Shown: in pieces, positions 6,700-61,107 of the stretch
Numbering within the stretch: position 1 is the first letter of the stretch
How the letters are laid out: each line of letters opens with the position of its first letter
NCBI GenBank assembly: GCA_030694265.1
Contig: JAUXYP010000002.1
Span: forward strand, 310,001-374,000
Direction: 5' to 3'
Length of the DNA: 64,000 bases
Origin: Sulfuricurvum sp.
Lineage (GTDB): Bacteria > Campylobacterota > Campylobacteria > Campylobacterales > Sulfurimonadaceae
Made by a program: the position numbers and the translations under genes
Notes under the pieces: model-generated
Told to the model about the DNA's origin: nothing
The model's input: the letters and a program-made list of their open reading frames with translations, nothing else
Database searches by the model: none

Positions 6700-8022
6700 A
6701 TGAGTGAACTATCCAATAAAATAGAAATTGTTAAAGCTCGTCTCAAAGAAGAGTTTCTTTCGGATACTCGTCCATGGGTAGTAACTTTTTCTGGGGGTAA
6801 AGATTCTACTACTGTTTTACATTTGGTTGTTGACATGCTTCTTGAAATGAAAAATGAAGGTGTGAAACAATCGAAAAAAGTTTATGTCGTTTCTTCGGAT
6901 ACGGGTGTAGAAATGCCGTTGATTGAAGATTACGTTGGCAACAAACTTAATCAAATTCGTGAATTTTCCAAAAATGAGCATCTAGATATCCATGTGGAAA
7001 AGCTTTCTCCTAAAGTAACAGAGAGCTTTTGGACTTTACTTTTGGGAAAAGGATATCCATCTCCCAACCAAACTTTTAGATGGTGTACCGATAGGATGAA
7101 AATTCGTCCTGCTACTTATTTTTTAAAAAGCTTATCAGATAAAAATGAATCTATTCTAATGCTGTTAGGGGTTAGAAGCGATGAGTCCGTTTCTCGTGCA
7201 GCATCTATTGAAAGACGTACGGATAATCATCGTGGTTTTTCGATGCATCCAGACATCCCTAATGCATTTATTTATTCACCGATTAAAGATTGGACTAATC
7301 CTGAAGTATGGGCTTTTTTAAGTACACATCCTGCCCCATGGGGAAAACACGAAGATATGATGGTTCTCTATGATAAAGGTTCAGGAGAAGGGGATTGTAA
7401 TGTTGCTTTAAATCCTGAATCTTCTTCTTGTGGAAAGACACGTTTTGGTTGTTGGGTTTGTACTGTTGTAGGCAAAGACAAATCCATGGATAATATGCTT
7501 AAAAATCCGGAAGATATGTGGATGAAACCGCTTCATGAGTTTAGAAACCTTTTAGAGGAGTATCGAGATCCTGATAGTGGAAAGCGTCAGCCTCGTCGAC
7601 GTAATGGGCAAAAATCCATTGGACCTTTTAAGCTTGAAACACGTAAAGAGCTACTCGAAAAGCTTTTATCTACGGAGAAAGATCTTAAAGCAGAACTTGC
7701 AGGTAAAACACTAATAAGTGATGATGAGATTGTTCAGCTTCAAGTAGAATGGCTCAACGATGGCGACTTCTTTGAAAGTGCTATAAATTTAGCAAAAAAA
7801 TATGGTCGTAATGTTAACTATGAGTCAGTTAAAGCTTTTAATGAGGATGAACAAGACTATATCGATGGTATATGTAAAGAAAATGATATAAACAAAGAAC
7901 TTATTGATCATATTATGCAGTGCGAACATTCTTATCGGCACCATAGTATTCGATCTAAAGCTTTTAGTGAGTTTGAGACTATTGTTGAACGTTTTGCAAA
8001 AGGACAACTCAATGAAGTTTAA
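6700..8022 (+). CDS. dndC: DNA phosphorothioation protein DndC (PAPS-reductase-like sulphurtransferase)
   Basis: DndC activates the DNA backbone for sulphur insertion, using ATP pyrophosphatase chemistry and an iron-sulphur cluster. The ATG at 6700 gives 440 residues; the reading frame extends to 6535, but that part is AT-rich and unlike the family. The PP-loop VTFSGGKDSTTVLHLV lies near residue 30. Cysteines suited to a 4Fe-4S cluster are in RWCTDRMK and in SSSCGKTRFGCWVC. It is the first gene of dndCDE and overlaps dndD by 11 bp. No dndA desulfurase gene is nearby, so sulphur probably comes from a chromosomal IscS/NifS. Confidence 0.93.
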   Translation: MSELSNKIEIVKARLKEEFLSDTRPWVVTFSGGKDSTTVLHLVVDMLLEMKNEGVKQSKKVYVVSSDTGVEMPLIEDYVGNKLNQIREFSKNEHLDIHVEKLSPKVTESFWTLLLGKGYPSPNQTFRWCTDRMKIRPATYFLKSLSDKNESILMLLGVRSDESVSRAASIERRTDNHRGFSMHPDIPNAFIYSPIKDWTNPEVWAFLSTHPAPWGKHEDMMVLYDKGSGEGDCNVALNPESSSCGKTRFGCWVCTVVGKDKSMDNMLKNPEDMWMKPLHEFRNLLEEYRDPDSGKRQPRRRNGQKSIGPFKLETRKELLEKLLSTEKDLKAELAGKTLISDDEIVQLQVEWLNDGDFFESAINLAKKYGRNVNYESVKAFNEDEQDYIDGICKENDINKELIDHIMQCEHSYRHHSIRSKAFSEFETIVERFAKGQLNEV

Positions 8023-9991
8023 ATCCATAGCGATACAAAATCTTTTCTCTTATCATGGGAAAATTATTTTTGAATTCAACAACGATAAGCTACCTATAAC
8101 TATTATTATCGGGGAAAATGGTTTTGGTAAAACTTCGTTTATAAATGCTATTAAATTGGCTCTTCATGGAATCTCTAAAGATCTACTACAAATTGGAGCA
8201 CAAAGTCTTACGAAGTCGGAGTTTGTTTTAGGAAGTAAAGATAAAAACTTTAGTGGTATGCTCAATCGTAATGCGAAGTTAGCTGGTGAAAATACGGCTA
8301 AAGTCGTCATAGAAATTGATGAGGGTGATATTTTTAAAGTAGAGCGTTCTTTTCATTTTGAAGGGAAAAATTATACAGAAACTCTATCGCTTATAGATGA
8401 AGATGGTACAGTCTTTGCGCAAGATAGTGATGCACAAGATATTATTAACTCTAAGCTCTCTCCAACTATGGCAAAGTTTTTTTTCTTTGATGGTGAAAAG
8501 GTACAAACCATTGCTGACTTCTCGCATGAAGAATTCACAAAAATGCTTGAAGATGTACTCGAACTGGATATTTATGATCAGATGATTAAAGATTCGGAAT
8601 CTATCATTCGTAAGATTACAAAAAATGAGCTAGGTGCTGATCTGCAAAAAGAAGTAGAAGAAAAATTTAAAAAACTCCAAGAGCTTGAAGCAGAAATTGA
8701 TGATAGTAAAGAGAAGCTAAAGCATGAACAAAAAACTGTGCTAAAAGAGTTAAACACTTCTTTATCACGAGTTGAAAATAAACTAAGTAAACTCAAAAGT
8801 AAGTTTACTAGCTCCATAGCTAGAATAAAAGAAAACCATAAAGAGCAAAACGAAGAAAAAAAGAGATTGACTGAGCTGTTAAAGCAAGCGACTCTCGTTC
8901 AGCTACCTCTATTGCTTAACCCAAAACTAGCCAAAAAAGTATCGACTGATATCGATACCAACTATAGAGGTAAAATTCAAATTGATACTGATCTTTTAGC
9001 CCAAAAAAAAGCCGATCTATTAGCACTTTTGAATGTAGATAGTGCATCTGTAGCAAATGCTTTTGATAAAGTATTTTCTGCTTCTAGTGAAAAGCAAAGT
9101 GTTCCTTTCGCTGACCCATATCGTATTGAAAAACAGTTTGATTCACTGCCTCGGATTGATCTTCCAAATCTATTGAAATCATTATCAGAAAATAGACTAT
9201 GTTTAATAGAGACGCAGCAAGAGTTACATTTACTCGAAGCTCAACAAGACAACGAACTCAAAGATGCTGAAGCTGATAGAGCTATAGAGAAAGAGCTACT
9301 TAAAAATATAGGTCACCAAGAAGCTATATGTGAAGCTTTAGAAGCCAAGATTATTGAGCTTATGAATGAGCATAAAAGTCTCAATAGTGAATATTCGAAG
9401 CTAACCATTGTAGAGCACAAGCATGACCTTACGCAAAAGAAGATTGATACACTTCACTCGGTTATAAAAGTGGCTGGGCAGATGAAAAGTAAGATCAAAA
9501 AAGATAAACGCCTTTCGCTTGAAAAAACGATCAATGAAAAATTTACTAGACTTAAAAAAGAAGGTTATGAAGCAGATAGCATTTGCTTAGATGAAGACTT
9601 CAATATCAACATCTACGATAAAGAAAATATAGCTATGGATATCCTCTCAAGCTCGTCAGGACAAAAACAGATCATTGCTACAGCATTGATATGGGGAATC
9701 TCGGAATACATCCCTGAAGAGATCCCTATGATCATCGATACACCACTAGGTCGTCTGGATGAAAAGAATCAAACGCGCATACTCAATGAGTTCTATCCTA
9801 ACGCCTCAAATCAGGTCATTATCCTGCCGACACCTAGTGAGCTAAGGCATGAGGGCTTTACGCAGTTAAAAGCGCATATAGAGCAAGTATACGAGCTTAA
9901 AAATGCTGGTTCCGCTACAACGGTACGAGAAGTGTCAGCAGATAGTGTTATCCACGCTAAATCACCACAATTAAGTCTGGAGTTAGTCTAA
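8012..9991 (+). CDS. dndD: DNA phosphorothioation ATPase DndD
   Basis: A 659-residue SMC/Rad50-like ATPase of the Dnd complex. The ATG at 8012 follows an AAGGA site inside the end of dndC. The Walker A is GENGFGKTS near residue 35. A long charged coiled-coil region fills the middle (KLQELEAEIDDSKEKLKHE and later blocks). The ABC signature SSSGQKQ and Walker B IPMIIDTPLGRLDE lie near the C terminus. No CxxC zinc hook is apparent. DndD is thought to provide ATP-driven DNA opening or nicking during phosphorothioation. The stop overlaps dndE as TAATG. Confidence 0.93.
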   Translation: MKFKSIAIQNLFSYHGKIIFEFNNDKLPITIIIGENGFGKTSFINAIKLALHGISKDLLQIGAQSLTKSEFVLGSKDKNFSGMLNRNAKLAGENTAKVVIEIDEGDIFKVERSFHFEGKNYTETLSLIDEDGTVFAQDSDAQDIINSKLSPTMAKFFFFDGEKVQTIADFSHEEFTKMLEDVLELDIYDQMIKDSESIIRKITKNELGADLQKEVEEKFKKLQELEAEIDDSKEKLKHEQKTVLKELNTSLSRVENKLSKLKSKFTSSIARIKENHKEQNEEKKRLTELLKQATLVQLPLLLNPKLAKKVSTDIDTNYRGKIQIDTDLLAQKKADLLALLNVDSASVANAFDKVFSASSEKQSVPFADPYRIEKQFDSLPRIDLPNLLKSLSENRLCLIETQQELHLLEAQQDNELKDAEADRAIEKELLKNIGHQEAICEALEAKIIELMNEHKSLNSEYSKLTIVEHKHDLTQKKIDTLHSVIKVAGQMKSKIKKDKRLSLEKTINEKFTRLKKEGYEADSICLDEDFNINIYDKENIAMDILSSSSGQKQIIATALIWGISEYIPEEIPMIIDTPLGRLDEKNQTRILNEFYPNASNQVIILPTPSELRHEGFTQLKAHIEQVYELKNAGSATTVREVSADSVIHAKSPQLSLELV

Positions 9992-10392: not shown

Positions 10393-11747
10393 TCTTTTTC
10401 TTTTTTAACATAGTTTGAAACTATCCACATTATTTTTTCATTGATGATATATTGCTTTGTTATATAGTCAACTTGCAATATGTTCATTAATTCTTTTTTC
10501 AATTTTCCTAATGAACCCAAACTTCCGGCTCCTTGGTAATTTTCATAGTTAACGCTATTAATTAATTTTAATTGATTATAAAAATCATCAACTGTAATGT
10601 TTTTAATATTTTCATAATTATCAATTTGATCTTTGTTTTTCAAAATTAAAATAATCAAACTTGGTAAAACCTGCAATATAGCAACAATCCCTATCGCTTT
10701 TGTGAAAACTGTTTTTTCATTTTTCCATAGATTTTTTTCTTTAAATTCATTATCTAACACCTTACTAAATGCTATGACGTAATTCAACAAGTTCTGTAAA
10801 ACAATATACTGTTTATCTTCAGTCTTAAATAACTCAGCATAAATTGGTATTCTCTGAGAAAAATTACCATGTTGTTGTACAAGAATCTCTAATTCTTGTT
10901 GTAAATAGGCTAAAGAAATATACTTTTTAACTTTATTTTTATCTGTCTTTCCATCCGGAAGTATCTTAATTCTACTCTGCAATGGACTATGATCACTAAT
11001 ATTAAGAAAATTAATGTATTCGTAAATTATTCGGCTATTAGTAATATTTTCCAAAAAAGTATTCTTTAAATGTACTAATACTGATTTGTCAACACTTTTT
11101 TGTGTAAAATTTACAGTATAAAAAGTTTCAGCCATTAAATCTGATTTAAATCCAAGTAAAAAAGTGATAGGCACTTCATACAATTTTTTTTCATCAGTTA
11201 ATCCTTTTAAGCCCAAAAATCTATGCTGACCATCTATTACGATTAAACTACCAAATTCGTATGGAATATAAACAACATCTTTACTTATATAAGCACCATC
11301 AAAACTATTAAATCCATTAATCCAATCATTATCTTTGCATTCTTCAATACAAGTACAATTTTCTGGTAAATCTAAATTAAAATCATCAATTTTTTCAGGA
11401 ATGGTTTTTATCTTTCCTCCAACAATAATAGTACTGGGAAGAATTGCATTACTCTCAGTTTTTACGTATTTAGTGATTTCATCTGCTCTTTGCAAATCTG
11501 CAGGTCGGTTGAATGCTTTCTCTTCAATATCATCTTTTTTAGAGAATAAATTTAATACCTTATCAAGTGTCATATCTTGATGATATTTTTTTCTTACTTC
11601 ATCATAATTTACAGGTCTTAGCCTAGCCATAACTTCTAAATTTTCTACAGTCAACTTTCCAATATAAAAAATCTTATCATTTTGATTTATGCTCATAATT
11701 GGCACTTTAATATATTGTTTTTCACCAATATTTATTACATTATTCAT
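10389..11747 (-). CDS. dndB: DGQHR-domain protein, DndB-like
   Basis: A 452-residue protein with the diagnostic IVIDGQHRFLGL motif near the middle and the downstream segment TVNFTQKSVDKS (FTQK-type) found in DndB and related DGQHR proteins. Known DndB proteins regulate the dnd operon and bind phosphorothioated regions. This one is longer than the usual ~360 residues and is not in its usual place before dndC. It is the last gene of the opposite operon, behind dptFGH and a membrane protein, and starts 4 bp inside that gene. A different DGQHR subfamily with another role is possible. Confidence 0.75.
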   Translation of the reverse strand: MNNVINIGEKQYIKVPIMSINQNDKIFYIGKLTVENLEVMARLRPVNYDEVRKKYHQDMTLDKVLNLFSKKDDIEEKAFNRPADLQRADEITKYVKTESNAILPSTIIVGGKIKTIPEKIDDFNLDLPENCTCIEECKDNDWINGFNSFDGAYISKDVVYIPYEFGSLIVIDGQHRFLGLKGLTDEKKLYEVPITFLLGFKSDLMAETFYTVNFTQKSVDKSVLVHLKNTFLENITNSRIIYEYINFLNISDHSPLQSRIKILPDGKTDKNKVKKYISLAYLQQELEILVQQHGNFSQRIPIYAELFKTEDKQYIVLQNLLNYVIAFSKVLDNEFKEKNLWKNEKTVFTKAIGIVAILQVLPSLIILILKNKDQIDNYENIKNITVDDFYNQLKLINSVNYENYQGAGSLGSLGKLKKELMNILQVDYITKQYIINEKIMWIVSNYVKKEKD

Positions 11748-12079
11748 GGTTTTACCCCTTCGATTTTACTAATAGCAACTTTTGCTATTTTAGTTCCTTT
11801 AGTATTAGCATCTTTTTCATCTTTCTTTATGATTTTGATTCCATCTCTTTCATATACAAGTAAAAATTTAAAAAATAATCCAAAAATAATTAACAAAATA
11901 ATTGTGTAAACAGCAAAAATTACATAAAATTTTTGTTCAGAAATATATTGATTTTCGCTTGGAAAAAGAATCTTATCAACTTGCACATAGTATCCACGTG
12001 TAATTATAATAGTTCCGATAACAAAAAGAGTATTACTTTTCAATCCTTTCCATTGAGCAGGGTTGAACCAATCAAGCAT
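11744..12079 (-). CDS. Small membrane protein within the dpt operon, unknown function
   Basis: A 111-residue protein with two predicted membrane helices, around NTLFVIGTIIITRGYY and FYVIFAVYTIILLIIFGLFF, joined by a short polar loop. A basic tail follows (RDGIKIIKKDEK). I do not recognise a family. The start overlaps the dptH stop by 8 bp and the stop overlaps dndB by 4 bp, so it is translated as part of dptF-dptG-dptH-X-dndB. The standard dptFGH set has no membrane protein, so it may be an accessory that places the restriction complex at the membrane; that role is inferred. Confidence 0.7.
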   Translation of the reverse strand: MLDWFNPAQWKGLKSNTLFVIGTIIITRGYYVQVDKILFPSENQYISEQKFYVIFAVYTIILLIIFGLFFKFLLVYERDGIKIIKKDEKDANTKGTKIAKVAISKIEGVKP

Positions 12080-15000
12080 TCTTATCCTTTTCTAGTTCCC
12101 AAAATGCTAAGTCTCGCATTTTATTCATATTCTTCTTTCCATCAACATATATACTAAAATGTTCTTCTAATTGCCTGATTTGGTCCATTAAATTTTCCGC
12201 TTCTGCTTTATTACTTATGTTAAATATTGAACTTACATCTTGAGACTTTATTTTGTCTACCTTGTGAATGATCCATGAAAGAATGTACTCGGTATAGTCA
12301 TTATCTGATGTTTTGAAATGACTAAGTTGTTGCGTAGATAAAATCGTACCTACTCCAAACTCACGACCCTCTTTTAGTATCTTTCTAAGGCTTTCAAAGT
12401 CTTGAGACATAAAGTTGTCTGCTTCATCAACCAGGAGCATCTTTGTCATTTGACGATATCCATTCATCTGAGCAGAAGCTCCTTTTGTTTGCATCTGGGT
12501 ATAGAAGATGTCTAACGTAATAGCAACGATAAGGTTTTGAATATCTGGATCATAGCCTGCAATGTTAATAACCGTCATGCCATCTAACATATCAAATAGA
12601 GATGTGGTATTTCTTGAATCGGGTTCAAAAATTTCAAACGAATTGAGTTTCTCTAGTGCTGCATAAAGTGAGTCGTATGCTACTTTATCTTCATTCGAGT
12701 AAATCTCCCAAATATCGTGAATCGTTGGTGCTGGTTTTGTCCACGTGGATGGATCACTTTTACTAATCCCTTTTTGCTCATACGCTTCCATGATAATACG
12801 ATTTAAATTCGACTGCTGTACTGGCCCCAATCCAAAAGCTTTGGATAGAGTTGTTTTGAATAAGTTCGCAGTATGTACTGGCAATAATGGGCGCGAGCCA
12901 AACAATGAAAGTGGGTTAAAGGGCAGGTGATATGGCTCATGTACTTTCGCATTAGTTGTAGTAACAAATTGATCATCAAGATAATCTTTTGCTTTGTAGT
13001 TGAAAATTAAAATATCAATTGGCAATGAATCAATGTTATTAGACGAATTCTGGATTATTTGAGTAATTACTGATTTGGTGAATTGAGTTTTACCAGTCCC
13101 CATAGTCCCAATGATGGCAGTGTTGGTATTGAGTGTTTTACTACTATCAGTCGGATACCAAAGGATCTCTTTTTTGTTTTCAACATTAGTACCAAACCGT
13201 ATTTGCATCGGAGTGATTGGTTGGCTTATTGTTATAGCTGTTTGGACAGGCAGTTGATTTTGTTCGATTTCTTGCATTGTTGGAATATTATCTACAAATT
13301 GAGGCTTTTCATTTTGCAAGTCTTCAGCGCTATTAAAAGCTACAAAGCTTGCATCTTTTAAAATATAATCCTCATTCGTGCCATACTCACCATTACGCAT
13401 TTTTATTTTTAAACTTTCGTAAGTTTCTTCGAGCATTAATTCTTGATATGAAGAAGGAAGAATGCATTCTAAAATATTTTCTTTTTTACTAAAACTACTC
13501 CATGTTTGCGCGTCTAGGTAAGCAATAACGGCACCTTCACTATAATCGTTTAGCTCAACTAATGGATAGGTCCCTTTTAGAAGTTCTTCTCGATTGGCAT
13601 GTAATGGTTTGAAGTAGTCACTATCAAATACATCATAAAGCTCATACTTTTCTACTTGCATAAATACTTGTCGAATAAAGAGACCTTTTAGCAAGTTGGA
13701 TTTGAATGAGTCTCCATAAAAAAGAAAATCGTAGAAAAATGATTTAAGAGATTTTGCTTGCTGTATAGCCTTGGATAAGCTAGCACTACCTGATTTTACT
13801 TCGACAGGATAGAGGACGACTCCATCCTTTGTAAAACCAACGAGTAATATATCGTCAGAGATGTAACCGATATGTTTTTCATCATTTGTTTGATTTGCAT
13901 TGTAGCGTGAGAAATCACCTTTTGACATGCTAAGACCTACATTGCCAGCAACTCTGATCATTTCAGCTACAGAGAGGGGAACCCATGTGATATTAGGAGC
14001 ATCTACTAGTGCAGTCATATATTTATATGCAGCTATGATACCTCTCTTCTCGCGCTTATTTCTTTCATCTTTTTCGGAAATCATTTTAATGAGCCATTCA
14101 CCATTAAAAGCATTAAATTCTCGAATAATATTTGCACCATCAATACTAGATGAGCTGCTGTTTTTTGAGTTACTATTTCTTACTACATTGGCATAGAGCT
14201 CTTTTTGTGCTGTAACGGTAATGGCATCATAGTTTGCTGATGAGCTGTACTGATCTGAATAATGGATGAGGATAAGATCTTTTTCGTTACTAAAAAAGTC
14301 TAGGGTAACTTTGGGATCAATGATCACTGTCCATAGAGCATTTTCATACGACTGTTTGAGAAGCTCTTTAAAGCGATCGCTGATCATTAGAGAGATTACT
14401 TCGTCTTCGTCACAAGGGGTACCTGATTCAAAGGCAGCTCTTTGAAGGGCATTATAGATTTTTGCTACTTTTAGATGTTTCTCCTCTGATATATCAATAT
14501 GTTTTAGACCAAAGCCACTGTAATAATAACTATCCTCTTTTTCAGAGCTTTCTCCAGAGATAAGACCATTACAAACCAATCCCGATTTACGATCATTTAC
14601 TTTAGGTGTTTTGACTTGAACTTTTTCGTTGTTTTTAAATAGGGACAGATGACAATAACTTTGTTTTTCATTTAGTAAGTGCTTGCTATAGGTGATATGG
14701 GTTCGCATCACATCGATAATTGTTTCTGCGTTTTGATTGAGTTTGTATTTATTTTTTAACTCTTCATAACTATTAGTATCTGCAAAGATATCAAAAGCAG
14801 TTTCTTGATACTTTTTATCATAGAGGTTGATAATAATCTTTTTTGGGTTAGTCTCAAAGGTGTTTTTATAGTAGTCTAGGAGTCCTTTAAAAACTTCGCT
14901 ATTTGAACTGTTGTTGATACTGTTGATGATAAGTGGAGCATCATGTCTGAATTCAAAGAGTTGTTCAAAAGCTTTGATAAACTCTAAAATCTTTTCTGTT

Positions 15001-48730: not shown

Positions 48731-48807
48731 GGCTAGGTAGCTCAGCTGGTTAGAGCGCTGGTCTCATAAGCCGGAGGTCGAGGGTTCGAGTCCCTCTCTC
48801 GCCACCA
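48731..48807 (+). tRNA. tRNA-Met type (anticodon CAT)
   Basis: A 77 nt cloverleaf with encoded CCA. Anticodon loop CTCATAA (CAT), T arm GAGGG TTCGAGT CCCTC. The acceptor stem GGCTAGG/TCTCGCC has a T-C mismatch at 4:69 and a G-T at 7:66. The GGCTAGGTAGCTCAG start resembles elongator tRNA-Met; a tRNA-Ile2 with modified C34 cannot be excluded. It is the attachment site of the mobilizable element that follows. Confidence 0.92.
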
Positions 48808-48812
48808 TCTAT
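48794..48812. repeat. attL of the mobilizable element
   Basis: CTCTCTCGCCACCATCTAT, a perfect copy of 61089-61107, overlapping the tRNA 3' end (acceptor strand and CCA). Confidence 0.88.
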
Positions 48813-49010: not shown

Positions 49011-50306
49011 ATGGCGCGTAAAGCAGTACCCCTAACCGATACAGAAATAAAGAAGGCAAAATCAGCCGAGAAAGATTATAAACTCTTTGACGGTGGCGGG
49101 CTATTTTTACTGATTAAACCGACTGGTGGTAAATTGTGGCGTTTGAAATATCTCTTTGAGGGTAAAGAAAAGCTAATTTCATTAGGCACATATCCCGAAA
49201 CGACATTACTTGAAGCAAGAGCAAAACGAGACGAATTTAAACGAGAGATCACCAAGGGGATAAACCCATCTGCAGAGCGTAAAGAATCCAAAGCAAAAAT
49301 AGAGGCAAAAGAGATCGAAGAACAAGCGGCGGTAGAAGGACAGTTTCACCTTGTAGCGTATGAATGGCTTAACTCACTTAACAATGACGAGAGTACGCAT
49401 AATAAGCGCGTTTCATCGTTTGAAAAAGACATTTTTCCCTATCTGTGCACTTACAATGAACGGCACGCCATTATCTCCTCAAAGCACATTAAAGACATTA
49501 CTCATCCCGAATTATTGAAAATTATTAAAATAAAAGAGAATACGGCTCCCGAAGTAGCAATTCGCCGGTTTAGAGATTGTAACCGTCTTTGGAAATATGC
49601 TATTAATCATGGTCATACGGAAATCAATATTAGCGATCGAATTAGTAGCGATGCATTTGTTCTCCGGAAAGAGAAACATATCCCTAAGATCACGGACGAA
49701 AAAATATTAGGAGAGCTTTTAAGAGCTATAGACAATTATAAAGGCGAAGGCGGGATCATTCTACGAAATATTCTCCGTTTTGTTTCTATCATACCTTTAC
49801 GTGCCGATAATCTATGTAAATTAAGATGGAATCAAGTTGATTTTGATAAAGCAATCATCAAGATACCACGATGTGAGATGAAAGTTAAAGATGATAATCT
49901 ACCCGACTTTGTAGTACCGCTTCCGATACAAGCGTTAAATATACTCAAAGAAGTAAGAGAAATTACGGGATGGGGGCAATGGGTATTTCATGGGGTACGA
50001 AATAATCTTACTCATGCAAATAAAGAGAGCGGCAATAAAGCATTGCGATCATTGGGATTTATTGACGAAGCAAACGGACGTAAACAAACACTACATAGTT
50101 TTAGAGGTACATTTCGATCACTCAGTGAAACATACGCTAAAGAGCATGGGGTGAGTTTTGAAGTTCGAGAGCGTGCATTGGATCACCATGAGCAAAATAA
50201 GGTTGTCAGAGCTTATACCCATAAAGCGGATTACACTGAGCAGATGCGAGAACTGATGCAATGGTGGGCAGATTTTTTAGACAGGCTAATGCTACGCCGC
50301 TCTTAA
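49011..50306 (+). CDS. int: Tyrosine integrase, P4 type with DUF4102 arm-binding domain
   Basis: A 431-residue integrase. The N-terminal LTDTEIKKAKSAEKDYKLFD and GGLFLLIKPTGGKLWRLKY form the DUF4102 arm-binding domain. Catalytic residues: Arg in IPLRADNLCKLRW, HSFRGTFRSL, the DHHEQN box and the Tyr in VRAYTHKADY. The C terminus RELMQWWADFLD is typical of the family. It lies 204 bp from the tRNA. No good ribosome binding site precedes the ATG; a TACCCCT repeat occupies that place. Confidence 0.95.
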   Translation: MARKAVPLTDTEIKKAKSAEKDYKLFDGGGLFLLIKPTGGKLWRLKYLFEGKEKLISLGTYPETTLLEARAKRDEFKREITKGINPSAERKESKAKIEAKEIEEQAAVEGQFHLVAYEWLNSLNNDESTHNKRVSSFEKDIFPYLCTYNERHAIISSKHIKDITHPELLKIIKIKENTAPEVAIRRFRDCNRLWKYAINHGHTEINISDRISSDAFVLRKEKHIPKITDEKILGELLRAIDNYKGEGGIILRNILRFVSIIPLRADNLCKLRWNQVDFDKAIIKIPRCEMKVKDDNLPDFVVPLPIQALNILKEVREITGWGQWVFHGVRNNLTHANKESGNKALRSLGFIDEANGRKQTLHSFRGTFRSLSETYAKEHGVSFEVRERALDHHEQNKVVRAYTHKADYTEQMRELMQWWADFLDRLMLRRS

Positions 50307-50463: not shown

Positions 50464-50565
50464 GAGCTTGCGAAAAAAGGAGCGCAATATAACCGTTAGG
50501 GTTGATAGTGCGCACTATCAACCCTAACGGATTAATCGTGCTATAATTCTCTACTTCGCAAGCTC
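50464..50565. other. Nested inverted repeats before the relaxase gene, candidate oriT
   Basis: An outer 11 bp inverted repeat (GAGCTTGCGAA 50464-50474, TTCGCAAGCTC 50555-50565) encloses a perfect 38 bp palindrome at 50493-50530 centred on GATAGTGC/GCACTATC. The relaxase gene starts 15 bp after the outer repeat. Mob/Pre (MobV) plasmids have oriT in this position, overlapping the mob promoter, and their nick site contains TAGTG. The exact nick site is inferred. The stretch 50307-50463 before it has no gene. Confidence 0.55.
50542..50547 (+). promoter_or_regulatory. -10 box of the relaxase gene
   Basis: TATAAT between the 38 bp palindrome and the right outer repeat, 32 bp before the ATG. Binding of the relaxase or a regulator to the palindrome would cover the -35 region, so autoregulation is plausible. 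Confidence 0.5.
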
Positions 50566-50579
50566 AGGAGAATTACAAA

Positions 50580-52259
50580 ATGGCAATCTCATCGATCAAC
50601 TTCGCCAAATCTTCCGGCGGTTCATTTGCTCATAATGACCGATCAGAAAAAGAGCCGGACTATCTTCTTCCGGTTGAACATCGATTAGAAAATGAGTGCA
50701 ACCGATCTGCACCGGAAGCGCAAAAAATGCTAGAGAATTTGTTTGAGAACGCCAAAGAAAATTACTCTAAAACCTACGGTCAAAAGTTCCAAACCAAATT
50801 TGAAAATGCGCACTGGGAAGCTGTCATAAATCTCAACAAAGAGCATACGATCAAAGACGTTGAACGTCTCGTTCGAGAGATCGAAAAAGAGACGGGATTT
50901 ACAGAGGTACAAATTGCTATCCATCGGGACGAGGGGCGCATTAACGAGAAAACGGCTCATCCGATTTATAACCTACACGCCCACGTCAATTTTTCTACTC
51001 TCGACAAAGAAACGGGGAGACAGTTGTACCGTAGATCGATCAGCAATTCAGAACGGGAGAAGATACGCAAAGAGAACGGTATCCCCGACGGGGAGAAGAT
51101 ACCGAAACATTTAACCGCTGTTATGGACAAAGCGAAGCTCTCAAAGCTCCAAGACATTACCGCCCGTGAATTGGGAATGGAACGGGGGCAAAAAGGCTCT
51201 GAGAAAGTGCGTTTAGGGCATAAGCAGTACCGAGCCGTAGAGCAAGAGAAAGAGAAGCTTTTAGAGAAGATCGATGAACTCCAAAAAGAGAACACAGAGC
51301 TACGCTACAGCTTCCGAGATATGCAAAAACAGATCACCGCCATAGAGGCTCCGACCGAAGATAAAAAAGAGCTTCATAGGCTCAATACCGAGATCAACAA
51401 AATGAAGATCGAGGGAGCTACCAAAGACCTCAAAATTTCAGAGCTTGAAGCGAAGATGAGAGAGATCGAGGAGAAGAACACCGATTTATCAAAGAGCCTT
51501 GAAACGGTGCGATCACTCAACCGCTATGCGGAGAGTGAGAAAGCAGAGCTTAGAGCGCAGAATATCGCCAAAGATCAAACGATAGATCAACTTAAAAACG
51601 ATTCAGAAAATACGCTTAAAATAACTCAACCGATACACGAGCCTATAAACGCCTCAAAAATTGCCAAGCTCCTAGAAGAAAACGAGATATTGCAGATCAC
51701 GAACAAAGCTCTTGAAACTGAAGTTTCAGAGCTGAAAGAAAATCGTGCTGTAGGTGATATCTCCAAGGAGATTGAGGAGGCGCATTCGAAAATCGGGGAA
51801 ATGGCGAGAATAGCTACTTCCAACGCTGAAGCCATCGAAGAGCTAGAAAAAGAGCTACCAAATCGTGACCCAAAAAAAGTAGCAATAGCCGTTTATAACT
51901 CTCATATCGTCGCTGATACGGGGATAATGGGGAAATTTGGCGGTGAGAAAAAAGATACCGATTTGCTCATTGCGAATATGGCGAAAGAGATCGAAAAGCG
52001 AGACAAACTGCTCAAAAGAGCTGTTGATATGCTCAAAAATTCAGAGATTACGAGAAAGAGGGTTACAGACTCAATAAAAAATGTTGTAGAAAGCTCAAAA
52101 AAGCACCTAGAAGCGATTTTTAGCAAAATTACGGGTAAATCATTACCCGAAGTAAAAAAAGAGCGTGAGGAGCTTGTGAACGCTAAACCGAGAGGACTAC
52201 GTGAAGCGGTCGATGAGCTAAACAAGCAGAAAGAGCCTGAAAAGGGGATAGAGAGATGA
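50580..52259 (+). CDS. mob: Mobilization relaxase of the Mob/Pre type
   Basis: A 559-residue protein with AGGAG before the ATG. Residues 1-220 form the relaxase-like part: SSINFAKSSGGSFAHNDRSE, VQIAIHRDEGRINEK and NLHAHVNFSTLDKETG, whose HxH with the upstream His fits an HUH metal site. Residues 220-560 are long coiled coils (EKEKLLEKIDELQKENTELR and similar). It should nick oriT and lead the strand during transfer. The motif spacing differs from classical MobV (an insert between HRDE and HAH), so it may be a distinct subfamily. Confidence 0.8.
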   Translation: MAISSINFAKSSGGSFAHNDRSEKEPDYLLPVEHRLENECNRSAPEAQKMLENLFENAKENYSKTYGQKFQTKFENAHWEAVINLNKEHTIKDVERLVREIEKETGFTEVQIAIHRDEGRINEKTAHPIYNLHAHVNFSTLDKETGRQLYRRSISNSEREKIRKENGIPDGEKIPKHLTAVMDKAKLSKLQDITARELGMERGQKGSEKVRLGHKQYRAVEQEKEKLLEKIDELQKENTELRYSFRDMQKQITAIEAPTEDKKELHRLNTEINKMKIEGATKDLKISELEAKMREIEEKNTDLSKSLETVRSLNRYAESEKAELRAQNIAKDQTIDQLKNDSENTLKITQPIHEPINASKIAKLLEENEILQITNKALETEVSELKENRAVGDISKEIEEAHSKIGEMARIATSNAEAIEELEKELPNRDPKKVAIAVYNSHIVADTGIMGKFGGEKKDTDLLIANMAKEIEKRDKLLKRAVDMLKNSEITRKRVTDSIKNVVESSKKHLEAIFSKITGKSLPEVKKEREELVNAKPRGLREAVDELNKQKEPEKGIER

Positions 52260-53749: not shown

Positions 53750-54007
53750 TCACCACGTTTTGATATTGGGTTCATTACCCTTGATAGAATGTTTTCTTTC
53801 CGATGCTGATACGGCCCGCTCTGCGCTTGCACATTCAACTCTCTCGTTCCCGGTCATTGACTCAAGTGTTTTACACTCTTGAACCAAGTCTTTTGCCTCA
53901 TCGAGGTGAGTTTTATAATATTCGATCGTTTCGGCTTCATCTTTTGGTTCACTGCACCCAGTGAGCAAGATTATTGTGATTGTTGCAATTGTAAATATTA
54001 TCTTCAT
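53750..54007 (-). CDS. trbK: TrbK/EexN-type entry-exclusion lipoprotein
   Basis: An 85-residue lipoprotein. The ATG at 54007 has AAGGA 7 bp upstream. The signal MKIIFTIATITIILLTGCSE ends in a lipobox with Cys. EYYKTHLDEAKDLVQECK followed by RVECASAERAV is the entry-exclusion protein pattern. The last 12 residues, SIKGNEPNIKTW, are identical to those of the upstream TrbJ-like protein. Confidence 0.75.
   Translation of the reverse strand: MKIIFTIATITIILLTGCSEPKDEAETIEYYKTHLDEAKDLVQECKTLESMTGNERVECASAERAVSASERKHSIKGNEPNIKTW
53753..53788. repeat. 36 bp direct repeat at the 3' end of the trbK-like gene
   Basis: Perfect copy of 54024-54059. It covers exactly the last 12 sense codons (SIKGNEPNIKTW) of both genes; the stop codons differ (TGA here, TAA there). 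Confidence 0.85.
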
Positions 54008-54020
54008 TTTGGTGTCCTTT

Positions 54021-54800
54021 TTACCACGTTTTGATATTGGGTTCATTACCCTTGATAGACTTTTTGCTTTTTGCTATCCACGCATCACGAGATGCTTGTG
54101 TCGCCGCCTTCTCTTCATTCTGTTGTGCCGATGCTTGCGCCATAAGGTTCGTTTGCATCAACATAGAGGAATGGAGCTTTTTGAGGGTATCCGTTTGGTG
54201 CATAGCGATTTCATTGGCCGCTTGAATTGCCGCTTTGTTCCCGACCGCATTACGGCTCTGGAGCTTGAGCATATTCATATTCAAAGCGTCGTCTTGTAAA
54301 TCCTTATTGACCGCTTTTAGGTTGCGGAGAGTACCGAGAGCCGTTCCACGGTTCTGATCGGTCAAGGATTTATAGTATTGAGAGAATGACGAGGCTTGAT
54401 CTTTGATCGAACCGGTTGTTCCTCTTTTCATGTGTTCATCGTATCCGGGGAACGTCGCTGAGAATTTATCATCGAGGTTCGCCATGTTGTAGGCTATGCC
54501 GTTTGTCGAAACCATCATGCTTGAGAGCTGATTGATGTAACTGTTAAAGTTCGATACATCCATTGCACTCAAAGCTTCTAAATTCTGCTGTGCCATCTGC
54601 ACCGCTTGAATGTTCTGCTGTAAGTTGTTTGTAGCAAGAGTGATCTGCTCAATCTGCTTCGCTTGGCTCACAGCATTGCCGACTTCTGCGGTCGCCCATT
54701 GGATTGATTGTAACGCTTGTGAAGCGTCACCTGCAGCATAACTATTTGAACCAATTAAACACGCCAATAATAGGCTAATTTTTGCTGTTTCTTTTAGCAT
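54021..54800 (-). CDS. trbJ: TrbJ/VirB5-type conjugation protein
   Basis: A 259-residue exported protein with signal ISLLLACLIGSNSYAAG and long amphipathic helices (NNLQQNIQAVQMAQQNLEAL). This is the usual look of TrbJ/VirB5 minor pilus or secretion proteins. GGAG precedes the ATG at 54800. The segment QASAQQNEEKAATQASRDAW near the C terminus is typical. Its last 12 residues are shared with the next gene. Confidence 0.78.
   Translation of the reverse strand: MLKETAKISLLLACLIGSNSYAAGDASQALQSIQWATAEVGNAVSQAKQIEQITLATNNLQQNIQAVQMAQQNLEALSAMDVSNFNSYINQLSSMMVSTNGIAYNMANLDDKFSATFPGYDEHMKRGTTGSIKDQASSFSQYYKSLTDQNRGTALGTLRNLKAVNKDLQDDALNMNMLKLQSRNAVGNKAAIQAANEIAMHQTDTLKKLHSSMLMQTNLMAQASAQQNEEKAATQASRDAWIAKSKKSIKGNEPNIKTW
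54024..54059. repeat. 36 bp direct repeat at the 3' end of the trbJ-like gene
   Basis: Second copy of 53753-53788, see there. Confidence 0.85.
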
Positions 54801-56801: not shown

Positions 56802-57332
56802 GTGCTTAAAACATATTCATTGTTATTTCAAAATACAATCAGAACTATTTCAAATTGGAAAGTTGAAAAACGTCCAATTATTTCATTGCTTGAAAAGTAC
56901 TTTTCAAAAGAAGATTTAGAAGAATTTTTAGAAACAGGGAAAATTTCTAGATTAGAAAATAATATGGTGTACACCGATGATCTTGATCTCATCAAATCCC
57001 TCAATATAGATAATGCTATTTTTTCTGCAAAAGCCAAATTACAAAATCTAGAAAATAAAGCTAGCGATTGGCTTCATAATAAAGGTGCAATAGGTATTTT
57101 AAAAGATGTCTTAGCATCAATGGAACCAAACGCATTTACTATAGAAAATGCGAAAGATATTCTTATCGAGAGAATTAAAGGATACGAAACAAAATTATTT
57201 TCATTGAAATTAAAAAATTCAAGCCAACAAAAACTACTTAATATCTACATCCAAAAGTATTTTTCAAAATTAGAATGTTATGCGATCTGCAAGTATAGTG
57301 ATGAAGTTTTTAATTACAAAGGCTATTTTTAA
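56802..57332 (+). CDS. Putative regulator with N-terminal HTH-like part
   Basis: A 176-residue protein starting with GTG, with GAGAGG before it. The N-terminal LLFQNTIRTISNWKVEKRPIISLLEKYF in part reads like a short helix-turn-helix in which NTIRTISNWKVEKRP is the recognition region. The rest is helical and rich in Lys and Asn. It lies divergent from the excisionase gene and ahead of the OLD-type nuclease gene (about 97 bp gap). It may regulate that gene. Not recognised as a family. Confidence 0.55.
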   Translation: MLKTYSLLFQNTIRTISNWKVEKRPIISLLEKYFSKEDLEEFLETGKISRLENNMVYTDDLDLIKSLNIDNAIFSAKAKLQNLENKASDWLHNKGAIGILKDVLASMEPNAFTIENAKDILIERIKGYETKLFSLKLKNSSQQKLLNIYIQKYFSKLECYAICKYSDEVFNYKGYF

Positions 57333-57429
57333 ACTTTTCACTTTGGTGTTGATGATTGGAGTGGGAGTTTTCTTAGGCTGTGAGCATATATAGAGTTTTT
57401 AAGGACCTAGTTTTTATCAAGGAATGAGA

Positions 57430-59250
57430 ATGTATTTCAAAAGTTTAGAAATCGAAAATGTTGGACCGATTGACCATATTAAAATCGAGTTTCCGAAAAA
57501 TGGAACTGCTCCAAAACCTTTGATAATTGTTGGTGAGAATGGTACCGGGAAAAGTATTTTACTTTCTCATCTTGTAAATAGTTTGATCGTTGGAAAGCAA
57601 GAAGTATTTGATAATATCGAGGTTGAGAAAGGCAAGGTATATAAATATAGAAGCGCTGATTATATAAAAAATGAAAAGAACTATGCGTTTTCATCTGTGC
57701 AGTTTGAGTCAGGGATTAAGGTTGAAGAATGGCAGTTACGGAGAATAAAATCAGACTTTGAAGAACAACTAGGGTATTCATCTATTCGTACAGAATGGAG
57801 CGAGATAAAACCTAATGAAAACTCAAATTTCGTATCAACATTTTCGACTTATCCGGATCAAAATAAAGAGTTTTTTAAAAAACAATGTAATCTCTATTTT
57901 CCTGTCAATAGGTTTGAAGACCCTGCATGGCTAAATATTGATAATTTAACAGCAAAAGCCAACTATAGTGATTTGAAACGTATATCTGGCTATTCGAATA
58001 GAGATATGATCTGTACATCTCCATTGAAAAATAACAAAAATTGGCTTCTTGATCTCATTTTTGATCGACAAGCTTTTGAAATTAAAACACTACCATTCTC
58101 TTATAGACCTAATGCTGACGTACCTGTAACGACGTTAACAGTATTTACTGGCTATGCGGGTCAGAGCACAGATATTTATAGTGCTGTGCTTAATGTGTTA
58201 AAAGTTGTTTTAAGAGAAAGTGGCAACGTTAGACTTGGAGCAGGCACAAGAAAAAATCGTGTAATTTCAATTATGAAAGATGAAAAGAATTTGGTTCCAA
58301 ATCTTTTTCAGCTATCGACAGGTGAAATTCAGTTATTAAATCTATTTCTTTCTATTGTCAGAGATTATGATCTATCTGATGGTGAGTTTAATAATTTAAA
58401 TGACATCAAAGGCATTGTGATAATAGATGAAATAGATTCACATCTTCATACAATACACCAAAAAGAAGTCTTGCCTGAACTGATAGCATCTTTTCCCAAT
58501 ATTCAGTTTATCATAACAACACACTCACCTCTATTTCTTATTGGTATGGAAGAAAAATTTGGTAGTGATGGCTTTGAAATCATTGATATGCCTCTTGGAG
58601 AAAAAGTTGTTGCAAGTGATTTTTCTGAATTTACAGCTGCATATGAAGCTTTCAAAGAAACGACCAAATATAGAGAAGGAATAAGAGAAGAGTTGGAGCG
58701 ACATTCAAAGCCAATAGTCTTTGTTGAGGGTGATTATGATATACGTTATTTAACTAAAGCGGCAGAATTACTTGGTAAAAATGATCTTCTTGAGCGTATC
58801 CAATTAAAAGATGGAGATGGCTTTGGTAATCTAGATAAAATTTGGAAAGCTTACAATAATTCTGTATCGGAAGTAATTCCAAGCAAGATAATTCTACTTT
58901 ATGACTGTGATACAAATAAGCAGGATTCGAATAAAAATTTAGTTTACAAGCGGATTATTCCTCTTGTGACTGAAAATCCAATTGCAATAGGTATTGAAAA
59001 TTTATTTTCAAATAATACTATTGAAAAAGTAGAAAGTGCTAACTACCATTATATAGACGTACATGAAGCATCTGTTACAAGGATTAGAGGAAATAATATC
59101 AACAAGCCTGCTTATAAGTCAGTTAATAAGGACGAGAAAGGCAACATGTGCGATTGGTTATGTGAAAATGGTGATTTAGAAGATTTTTCAGGGTTTCAAT
59201 CAGCTTTTGATATCATTGAAAATCTAATTAAGGTTCCTAACAAAGTGTGA
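57430..59250 (+). CDS. OLD-family ATP-dependent nuclease (AAA ATPase plus TOPRIM)
   Basis: A 606-residue protein; the ATG at 57430 is chosen because AAGGA sits 7 bp upstream, while the ATG at 57424 is too close to it. ABC-type ATPase: Walker A IIVGENGTGKSI (residues 35-42), signature LSTGEIQLLNLFLS, Walker B IVIIDEIDSHLH and ITTHSPLF. TOPRIM: PIVFVEGDYDIRYLTKA and ILLYDCDTN. The order matches class 1 OLD nucleases, which act in anti-phage defence. No UvrD-like helicase partner (Gabija) and no reverse transcriptase lies beside it, so it appears to act alone or with its small neighbours. Confidence 0.85.
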   Translation: MYFKSLEIENVGPIDHIKIEFPKNGTAPKPLIIVGENGTGKSILLSHLVNSLIVGKQEVFDNIEVEKGKVYKYRSADYIKNEKNYAFSSVQFESGIKVEEWQLRRIKSDFEEQLGYSSIRTEWSEIKPNENSNFVSTFSTYPDQNKEFFKKQCNLYFPVNRFEDPAWLNIDNLTAKANYSDLKRISGYSNRDMICTSPLKNNKNWLLDLIFDRQAFEIKTLPFSYRPNADVPVTTLTVFTGYAGQSTDIYSAVLNVLKVVLRESGNVRLGAGTRKNRVISIMKDEKNLVPNLFQLSTGEIQLLNLFLSIVRDYDLSDGEFNNLNDIKGIVIIDEIDSHLHTIHQKEVLPELIASFPNIQFIITTHSPLFLIGMEEKFGSDGFEIIDMPLGEKVVASDFSEFTAAYEAFKETTKYREGIREELERHSKPIVFVEGDYDIRYLTKAAELLGKNDLLERIQLKDGDGFGNLDKIWKAYNNSVSEVIPSKIILLYDCDTNKQDSNKNLVYKRIIPLVTENPIAIGIENLFSNNTIEKVESANYHYIDVHEASVTRIRGNNINKPAYKSVNKDEKGNMCDWLCENGDLEDFSGFQSAFDIIENLIKVPNKV

Positions 59251-60152: not shown

Positions 60153-60429
60153 ATGCGTGATCGAGATAAATATCACGATTGGCATTTTATTTGATATAAT
60201 CATAAAATGTTAGAGTTGACTTTTGATGTTAATGTGTTGAATTTTCAAATTATTTTGGGGGTAGCCAAAGTAAAACTGAGCATCAATCCCGTAAGCCATA
60301 AGAACAATGCAATCCATCATTAACAACAATGATAGGTGTGGTGTTTATATAAAAGAATGTTTAATTTTAGTAGTCTATAAGAACTTTTTAATATAATTTA
60401 GTTAAACTTAGTAACTTAATTAAGCTTTT

Positions 60430-60552
60430 GCCGCCAAGTGTACTTTTGTATATTTGACGGCGAAAGCCATTAGTTTCCTTTAATTTGTGATTTGAGTCAT
60501 CAGGTGAGAGCGTTGACAAGAGGATCGTTTCGGGATTATTTTTTATGGTCAG
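60430..60552 (+). ncRNA. Candidate structured RNA upstream of a terminator
   Basis: GCCGCCAAGTGTAC (60430-60443) and GTATATTTGACGGC (60448-60461) pair over 14 positions with one mismatch and a TTTT loop. GGCGAAAGCC (60459-60468) could form an alternative GNRA hairpin. No protein-coding frame fits. A TTGACA at 60513 and a strong terminator at 60553-60587 follow. The region 60153-60429 before it holds no recognisable gene. The identity is unknown. Confidence 0.35.
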
Positions 60553-60587
60553 GGGTGGCAATCTTCGGATTGTTGCCCTTTTTTTTT
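60553..60587 (+). terminator. Strong terminator with UUCG loop
   Basis: GGGTGGCAATC, loop TTCG, GATTGTTGCCC (11 pairs, three of them G-U) followed by nine T. It sits directly before the 5S-like sequence, so it ends a transcript from the left and keeps the two RNAs apart. Confidence 0.85.
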
Positions 60588-60589
60588 GC

Positions 60590-60712
60590 CCGGTTTTTTG
60601 TGTTTAAAGAGGCGGGGAAACGCCCGGCCCCATTCCGAACCCGGAAGCTAAGGCCGCCTTCGCTCATAATACTGCATTTTTCAAGTGTGGAAACGTAGGA
60701 AAGCGCAACTAA
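60590..60712 (+). rRNA. Divergent 5S rRNA-like sequence
   Basis: Two segments are clearly 5S-derived: GGGGAAACGCCCGG followed by CCCATTCCGAACCCGGAAGC and TAAG, and ATAATACTGCATTTTTCAAG followed by TGTGGAAACGTAGG. The helix II partners GAGGCGG/CCGCCTT still pair. The terminal helix I (5' GCCCGG...; 3' AAGCGCAACTAA) does not pair well, unlike functional 5S genes. No 16S or 23S is near. It lies inside the mobile element. It could be a decayed 5S gene or an RNA that mimics 5S. The ends are approximate. Confidence 0.65.
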
Positions 60713-60775
60713 CCTCGGCTATGTCTAGGTGTAGTCGGTTATCAAGACCAAAAAAAATAATTTCGGAGTGTATAA

Positions 60776-60898
60776 ATGTATTATCTAACACAAATCTATA
60801 TAGATCCTCGTATTGTTGGCCTTATGGCTCATATTCTTCTAGCGATTGGGTACAGTCTTATGGCTGCTGTCTATTTCTCAGGAGTAGCAACCCATTAA
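60776..60898 (+). CDS. 40-residue single-span membrane protein
   Basis: ATG at 60776 with CGGAG 7 bp before it. The protein starts MYYLTQIYIDPRIVGLMAH and has one long hydrophobic helix (ILLAIGYSLMAAVYFSG) before the C-terminal VATH. Not recognised. It lies directly after the 5S-like sequence, and a bulged stem-loop (CAGGAAACGGAAAG/CTTTCGTTCCTG, 60909-60940) follows its stop. Confidence 0.5.
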   Translation: MYYLTQIYIDPRIVGLMAHILLAIGYSLMAAVYFSGVATH

Positions 60899-61088: not shown

Positions 61089-61107
61089 CTCTCTCGCCAC
61101 CATCTAT
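61089..61107. repeat. attR of the mobilizable element
   Basis: CTCTCTCGCCACCATCTAT, a perfect copy of 48794-48812. The bases after it (AATTCAATTCC) also resemble those after attL (TAATTCAACTCC). Confidence 0.88.

Follow-up and report, generated by a model that had tools for sequence, protein, structure and literature searches.

A 5S rRNA-like domain with a conserved fold lies on a mobilizable element within the window, by which we mean the whole 64,000-nt stretch of Sulfuricurvum DNA that was analysed, and is placed between a leader segment and a micropeptide gene to whose Shine-Dalgarno (SD) region that leader is complementary. We propose, at a probability of about 0.45, that this 5S mimic is a domain of a riboregulated, type I toxin–antitoxin-like micropeptide module on the element, probably read by 5S-binding ribosomal proteins (r-proteins) or nucleases. 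Judged from the sequence, the surroundings of the domain point first to control of the micropeptide gene.

The mobile element and its 5S domain

48731–48807, + strand: tRNA-Met (CAT), the integration site (ARAGORN, Rfam)
48794–48812, + strand: left attachment repeat CTCTCTCGCCACCATCTAT, at the tRNA end (direct repeat family D2)
49011–50306, + strand: tyrosine integrase (Pfam PF13356, PF00589)
50580–52259, + strand: relaxase-like protein, named from its position and weak similarity, with no Pfam family above cut-off
60592–60595, + strand: GGUU, outer extension of 5S helix I, pairing with AACC at 60712–60715 (minimum-energy fold of the read-through RNA)
60596–60711, + strand: 5S rRNA mimic domain (RF00001, 60.6 bits; compensated pairs)
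61089–61107, + strand: right attachment repeat, the same 19 bases, at the right element end (direct repeat family D2)

The attachment repeats at 48794 and 61089 are spaced 12,295 bp apart and delimit a 12.3-kb element integrated at the tRNA-Met gene, with the integrase beginning at 49011; the sequence-only reading had placed the 5S-like RNA inside an element of this size, and it does lie there, approximately 0.4 kb inside the right end. The element also encodes TrbL, TrbJ, a replication-O-like protein and a PtuA-like ATPase, and is mobilizable. A related element (G025:C48) has a relaxase N-terminus that is 95% identical and a different integrase. Three further observations concern the body of the element. 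A 62-bp near-perfect palindrome at 50481–50542, upstream of the relaxase gene and largely retained in the related element L101, is a candidate origin of transfer. At 53752–54070, near-identical 48-nt tails (KGNEPNIKTW) end a 98-aa ORF (53750–54046) and the TrbJ gene (54021–54800), a partial duplication that is present in L101 too. The cargo pair at 56802–59250 is probably a defence system: one member is a 608-aa AAA ATPase that resembles PtuA (Septu; retron Ec78 effector), the other a 176-aa protein with no family assignment.

An Rfam search of the 64-kb window returned a single 5S match, RF00001 at 60596–60711 (+), which spans model positions 1–120 at 60.6 bits (E 3e-10; gathering score 38 bits); the covariance search thus upholds a 5S-like RNA at 60590–60712, and the two near-identical 5S blocks seen by eye are real. 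The host genome contains a 5S gene directly behind a 23S gene (C20:1776–1891, 82.5 bits) and another that is cut by a contig end (C9:1–105), the element copy being the third and standing alone. No 16S or 23S gene was found by Rfam in the 64-kb window, and the domain is outside an rRNA-operon context, as had been supposed. Gap-free alignment with the host 5S gives identity at 93 of 116 positions, with loops C and E the same. When helix I is left out, 85/93 positions are identical to normal 5S genes, and a tree of these short sequences places the domain, with weak support, among Sulfuricurvum 5S genes. On these comparisons, its descent from a Sulfuricurvum 5S is clear.

Helix I, which had been read as failing to close, is closed: seven of its nine pairs form, some of them G-U, between UUGUGUU and its 3' partner (U3-A113, U4-A112, G5-C111, U6-G110, G7-C109, U8-G108 and U9-A107), an inner eighth pair, U10-A106, is gained, and the GGUU/AACC extension lengthens the stem on its outer side. 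The closure is present in the minimum-energy fold too. The five-helix 5S fold is thereby found with 27/34 standard pairs, compared with 31/34 in the host 5S. The losses are two outer helix I pairs, the hinge pair 67-105 and, relative to the host 5S, pair 33-43, which shows the identical change in the normal 5S of another genome, G036.

Seven pairs are doubly compensated relative to the host 5S, four in helix I (3-113, 4-112, 8-108 and 9-107), two in helix II (17-62 and 18-61), where the pairing had correctly been read as kept by compensation, and one in helix IV (83-89); in 100,000 random-mutation runs a total of seven never arose. The nearest normal 5S, that of the Sulfuricurvum genome G036, differs from the domain by 20 substitutions, with six doubly compensated pairs, a number reached in 0/200,000 random-mutation simulations and in 1/200,000 when the number of helix I changes was held fixed. 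In an alignment of ten 5S sequences, the window and phage contig L204 (described below) included, both sides changed in 12 pairs against 3.7 by shuffling. The thermodynamic z-score of the element 5S alone is only −0.9. From the compensated pairs and the simulations, random decay of the element 5S is therefore rejected; the substitution pattern indicates that its fold is kept by selection and that the domain evolved with the fold intact.

This outcome bears on the view, preferred as the simpler one in the sequence-only reading, that the domain is a decayed host 5S copy, a pseudogene picked up by the element and without function. Descent from a Sulfuricurvum 5S, with 85/93 positions identical when helix I is set aside, three to four broken pairs, the finding of no other copy in the genus search and the known 5S remnants behind terminators (PMC7812874) would all suit a pseudogene, but we consider it highly improbable given six to seven doubly compensated pairs, which the random-mutation runs do not reach, and given that L204 has a module of the same kind with another, unrelated 5S. 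Clear derivation from the host 5S with random mutations had been expected to tell against a mimic; the derivation from a Sulfuricurvum 5S stands, and the randomness does not. An element-borne 5S mimic is thus favoured both by the compensated pairs and by the apparently independent 5S in the similar L204 module.

Leader, terminator and micropeptide

60392–60397, + strand: exact TATAAT, candidate promoter element of the leader (read in the sequence)
60526–60550, + strand: leader segment complementary to the micropeptide SD region (shuffles; inverted repeat I6)
60551–60589, + strand: terminator hairpin with a UUCG loop, followed by a T run (terminator scan; similarity to plasmid-module terminators)
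60746–60770, + strand: leader target, including the SD sequence GGAG (complementarity, predicted fold, inverted repeat)
60776–60898, + strand: ORF of a 40-aa hydrophobic micropeptide, MYYLTQIYIDPRIVGLMAHILLAIGYSLMAAVYFSGVATH (open frame; 60776–60895 without the stop)

The module therefore runs in the order leader, terminator, 5S domain, ribosome-binding site (RBS) and 40-aa hydrophobic ORF. The strong terminator reported immediately upstream of the 5S is a stem of 13 pairs (60551–60580) with a T-run after it, according to the terminator scan, and it stands at the place required if the leader is to be released as an RNA of its own. Neither the leader/SD complementarity nor the micropeptide ORF had been described in the sequence-only reading. 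Segment 60526–60550 pairs with 60746–60770 at 24 of 25 positions, a score reached by none of 1000 dinucleotide shuffles, and the core of this pairing, which is A/T-rich, was listed independently as inverted repeat I6; the segment would thus provide an RNA complementary to the translation start of a putative toxin mRNA. The micropeptide has a GRAVY of 1.03 and a best 17-residue window of 2.01, as befits a small hydrophobic peptide with a transmembrane stretch, and no homologue was found among 250 related genomes. Matches to the RNA families L20_leader and ctRNA fell far below cut-off.

In the predicted fold of the read-through transcript, leader and SD form a long helix around the terminator hairpin and the 5S domain, with pair probabilities mostly near 1 across 60530–60550; helix I of the 5S has a pair probability of approximately 0.3 in this predicted long transcript, proteins left out. 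A promoter-like site at 60513–60542 overlaps the leader, and if this were the promoter used, the antisense segment would not be transcribed because of that overlap, which is the main sequence-level objection to the regulatory reading.

Related modules and a second 5S-bearing element

A second 5S-bearing module was found by scanning IMG/VR with 5S-core patterns. This phage contig, L204, comes from a record of 17,074 nt that encodes tape-measure and anti-repressor proteins, and its 5S suggests a host within the Campylobacterota. The L204 5S (7998–8112, 71.4 bits) has all 34 of 34 pairs standard and a helix I that is also U-rich, UUUUGUGAC with GUCGUUGCAAAA; it is preceded by a terminator-like hairpin and T9, and followed by GGAGG and the ORF of a 24-aa peptide, MFHFIAYLFIALIYLALAINSYLK. 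The L204 leader, 7898–7943, is complementary to 8115–8157 (0/1000 shuffles). Window and L204 thus present the same order of parts, each with its own 5S and its own leader/SD complementarity. With helix I left out, the two 5S domains are identical at 60/90 positions, and L204 matches normal 5S genes at 74/89, which suggests that modules of one kind acquired their 5S in two separate captures, and hence that mobile elements may twice have recruited the 5S fold as a control part.

The L204 placement also bears on whether the window domain could be a functional alternative 5S, processed out of the transcript and entering the 50S subunit to yield variant ribosomes or to tether the message, which is the kind of role that the sequence-only reading had in mind. 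Loops C and E identical to those of the host, the full-length model match and the compensated helices would be expected of such an RNA. It has, however, no rRNA-type context and no 23S gene nearby, its helix I is weak, and it sits between an anti-SD leader and a micropeptide SD, a placement equalled in L204; we regard a functional alternative 5S as distinctly unlikely.

The layout of the module, considered apart from its 5S, extends to Sulfuricurvum plasmids. The window terminator region is 81–85% identical over 46 nt to the terminators of two Sulfuricurvum plasmid-type contigs; matches outside the genus were judged to be chance. About 15 Sulfuricurvum plasmid or mobile-element modules share the layout and are without a 5S, running in the order promoter-like TATAAT, leader, terminator, T9, short GCC...GGC hairpin, RBS and peptide, the peptides being short and hydrophobic, roughly 19–25 aa, and mostly ending in ..P.LH. 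Since most related modules have no 5S, the role of the 5S is not essential to this layout. The 5S-less modules are candidates for a new type-I-like family carried by plasmids and elements of Sulfuricurvum. They are unannotated where they occur, in L046–L070 (several Sulfuricurvum genomes) and in L034, which matches the S. kujiense plasmid NC_014763.1.

Across 17 modules, a set that includes the window and L204, leaders pair better with their own RBS region than with those of others, the observed sum being reached in 0/20,000 permutations; by rank of own pairing the window is third, L070 eighth and L068 ninth, and the result accordingly holds for the set. These data bear on the suggestion that the leader/SD complementarity and the micropeptide ORF lie near the 5S by chance, the 5S being unrelated to them. 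Such a coincidence is made easier by an A/T-rich pairing core and by the commonness of small ORFs, and in the cross-pairing test the window's pairing with its own RBS region comes third among the 17 in that row, but it is very unlikely in view of the 0/1000 dinucleotide shuffles obtained for window and L204 separately, the same order of parts in both, and the family-wide match of leaders to their own RBS.

The short hairpin of the 5S-less modules raises another possibility, that the 5S serves passively, as a compact fold which insulates or stabilizes the micropeptide mRNA by protecting or spacing it and has no specific partner, for a slot that holds only a GCC...GGC hairpin in related modules evidently tolerates different folds. 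Against this, two independent recruitments of the same RNA and the unchanged loops C and E suggest that 5S identity matters, and we judge a merely passive role to be unlikely.

Searches for further examples point to rarity. Within the genus, RF00001 gave 52 matches, and those inspected, the window excepted, were rRNA operons or contig ends, where operons break assemblies. Among the best 150 RF00001 matches listed for 228 family genomes there was no further 5S-bearing module, with the window 5S itself scoring below these 150, such that a similar locus could lie lower. A U-rich 5S-start pattern searched in 399 genomes of the order yielded only the window locus, normal 5S genes and unrelated sequence. 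No 5S was found near homologues (L074–L076) of the neighbouring 213-aa protein, nor by blastn in relaxase neighbourhoods. On conservation in related elements, which the earlier account had named as a check, the outcome is divided: no other 5S-bearing module appeared among the genus matches inspected, among the best 150 matches listed for the family or, for the form with a U-rich helix I, in the 399 order genomes, and the layout recurs in L204, the only 5S-bearing module found besides the window.

Several other candidates were set aside. The 5S matches on plasmids (Rhodococcus p5, Aliarcobacter pACIB and Sulfurovum; 3/11 plasmid records inspected) were rRNA operons or an operon remnant. L137, which its A-rich helix I had made a candidate second mimic, carries a clostridial-type 5S of 38.8 bits that is probably cut at its 5' end; on this virus-classed contig an IS1182-like transposase gene (11740–13395) adjoins the 5S, which is apparently without its 5' part. 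L145 is the edge of a host rRNA operon, and in L215, L220, L251, L138 and L141 the match appears to be a host 5S located at the edge of a prophage or contig. L318 and L319 hold tandem truncated 5S copies in Arundinibacter roseus, separated by strong terminators and resembling the remnants of PMC7812874. Finally, L170 has a lone 5S in a Bacteroidetes-like element of different layout; this match (642–749 in IMGVR_UViG_3300006136_000010, a virus-classed contig) scores 71 bits and has a shortened helix IV and a TAnnTTTG-like promoter just upstream.

A possible control circuit and its relatives

The riboregulated module that we favour would operate as follows. Transcription from the upstream promoter would mostly end at the terminator, and the resulting short leader RNA, being antisense to the micropeptide SD region, could act in the manner of an antitoxin. 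Rare read-through would produce the micropeptide mRNA, whose own leader would fold onto the SD and keep the message silent; the loop closed in this way would contain the 5S fold. The hydrophobic peptide would probably be a type-I-like membrane toxin that helps to retain the element. We infer expression, the antitoxin role of the leader, self-repression of the message and peptide toxicity from the arrangement of these parts. The 5S mimic would be a captured host 5S in which helix I has been recoded to a weak A-U/G-U stem and loops C and E left unchanged, most likely serving as a docking or processing domain for uL18, uL5, bL25 or the 5S maturation nucleases. Their action on it could determine whether leader and message remain in one RNA, thereby coupling peptide output to ribosome assembly; this r-protein or nuclease step is less certain than the others.

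SD sequestration or pairing keeps type I toxins in check, and processing activates some of them (hok, zorO; PMC8309996). The window module resembles such systems (hok/Sok, zorO/OrzO, bsrG/SR4; PMC8309996) in its small hydrophobic peptide, its putative SD-pairing RNA and its predicted self-sequestering mRNA, but differs in that the pairing RNA would be a terminated leader encoded on the ORF's own strand, with a 5S fold between them. On these features it may be described as type-I-like with an rRNA-mimic domain; we do not claim membership of a type I family.

With regard to rRNA itself, the domain matches the whole RF00001 model and shares loops C and E with the host 5S, but lies outside an rRNA operon, has its helix I recoded to A-U and G-U pairs and is flanked by an antisense leader on one side and the RBS of a micropeptide on the other. 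The 5S-like remnants and displaced 5S sequences of Stepanov and Fox include some on plasmids and some behind terminators, and they lack terminal parts or bear insertions and are mostly at rRNA operons (PMC7812874). A 5S outside its normal place is common to these remnants and the window, whereas an antisense leader and a micropeptide accompany the window 5S and are not described for the remnants in that part of the report. Bacterial r-protein operon leaders imitate short protein-binding rRNA sites and control r-protein genes (PMC10931766). The window may resemble them in having an rRNA segment within the 5' region of a message, since its 5S fold stands upstream of an ORF, though behind a terminator that transcription would have to pass; it differs in placing a whole 5S fold before a mobile-element micropeptide, no whole 5S being described among r-protein leaders in the accessible part of that source. 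The plant 5S mimic P5SM, in the TFIIIA pre-mRNA, is read by r-protein L5 and directs exon skipping (PMC5972288). A 5S fold inside a messenger region, putative in the window, is common to both, but P5SM is eukaryotic, whereas the window domain is bacterial and lies in a putative 5' region on a mobile element.

We found no description of a bacterial mobile-element 5S mimic in the open-access literature, a scope outside which most subscription papers fall. Within it, a structurally selected 5S outside rRNA operons, in two unrelated elements and in the same module, appears to be undescribed, as does the Sulfuricurvum plasmid family of modules in which leader and micropeptide share a strand. A broader generalization, which we offer as rather doubtful, is that mobile elements repeatedly build host 5S into antisense-regulated membrane-peptide control, with free 5S-binding r-proteins, ribosome assembly or 5S maturation as the switch.

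Should the r-protein or nuclease step prove true, selfish elements would sense host ribosome assembly directly, by way of a 5S decoy attached to the message of a putative toxin, and plasmid or phage maintenance would be linked to growth state by a new route. Bacteria would then have an equivalent of the plant TFIIIA 5S mimic, and the domain would be a mobile-element sensor of host ribosome supply, for which we found no described bacterial counterpart.
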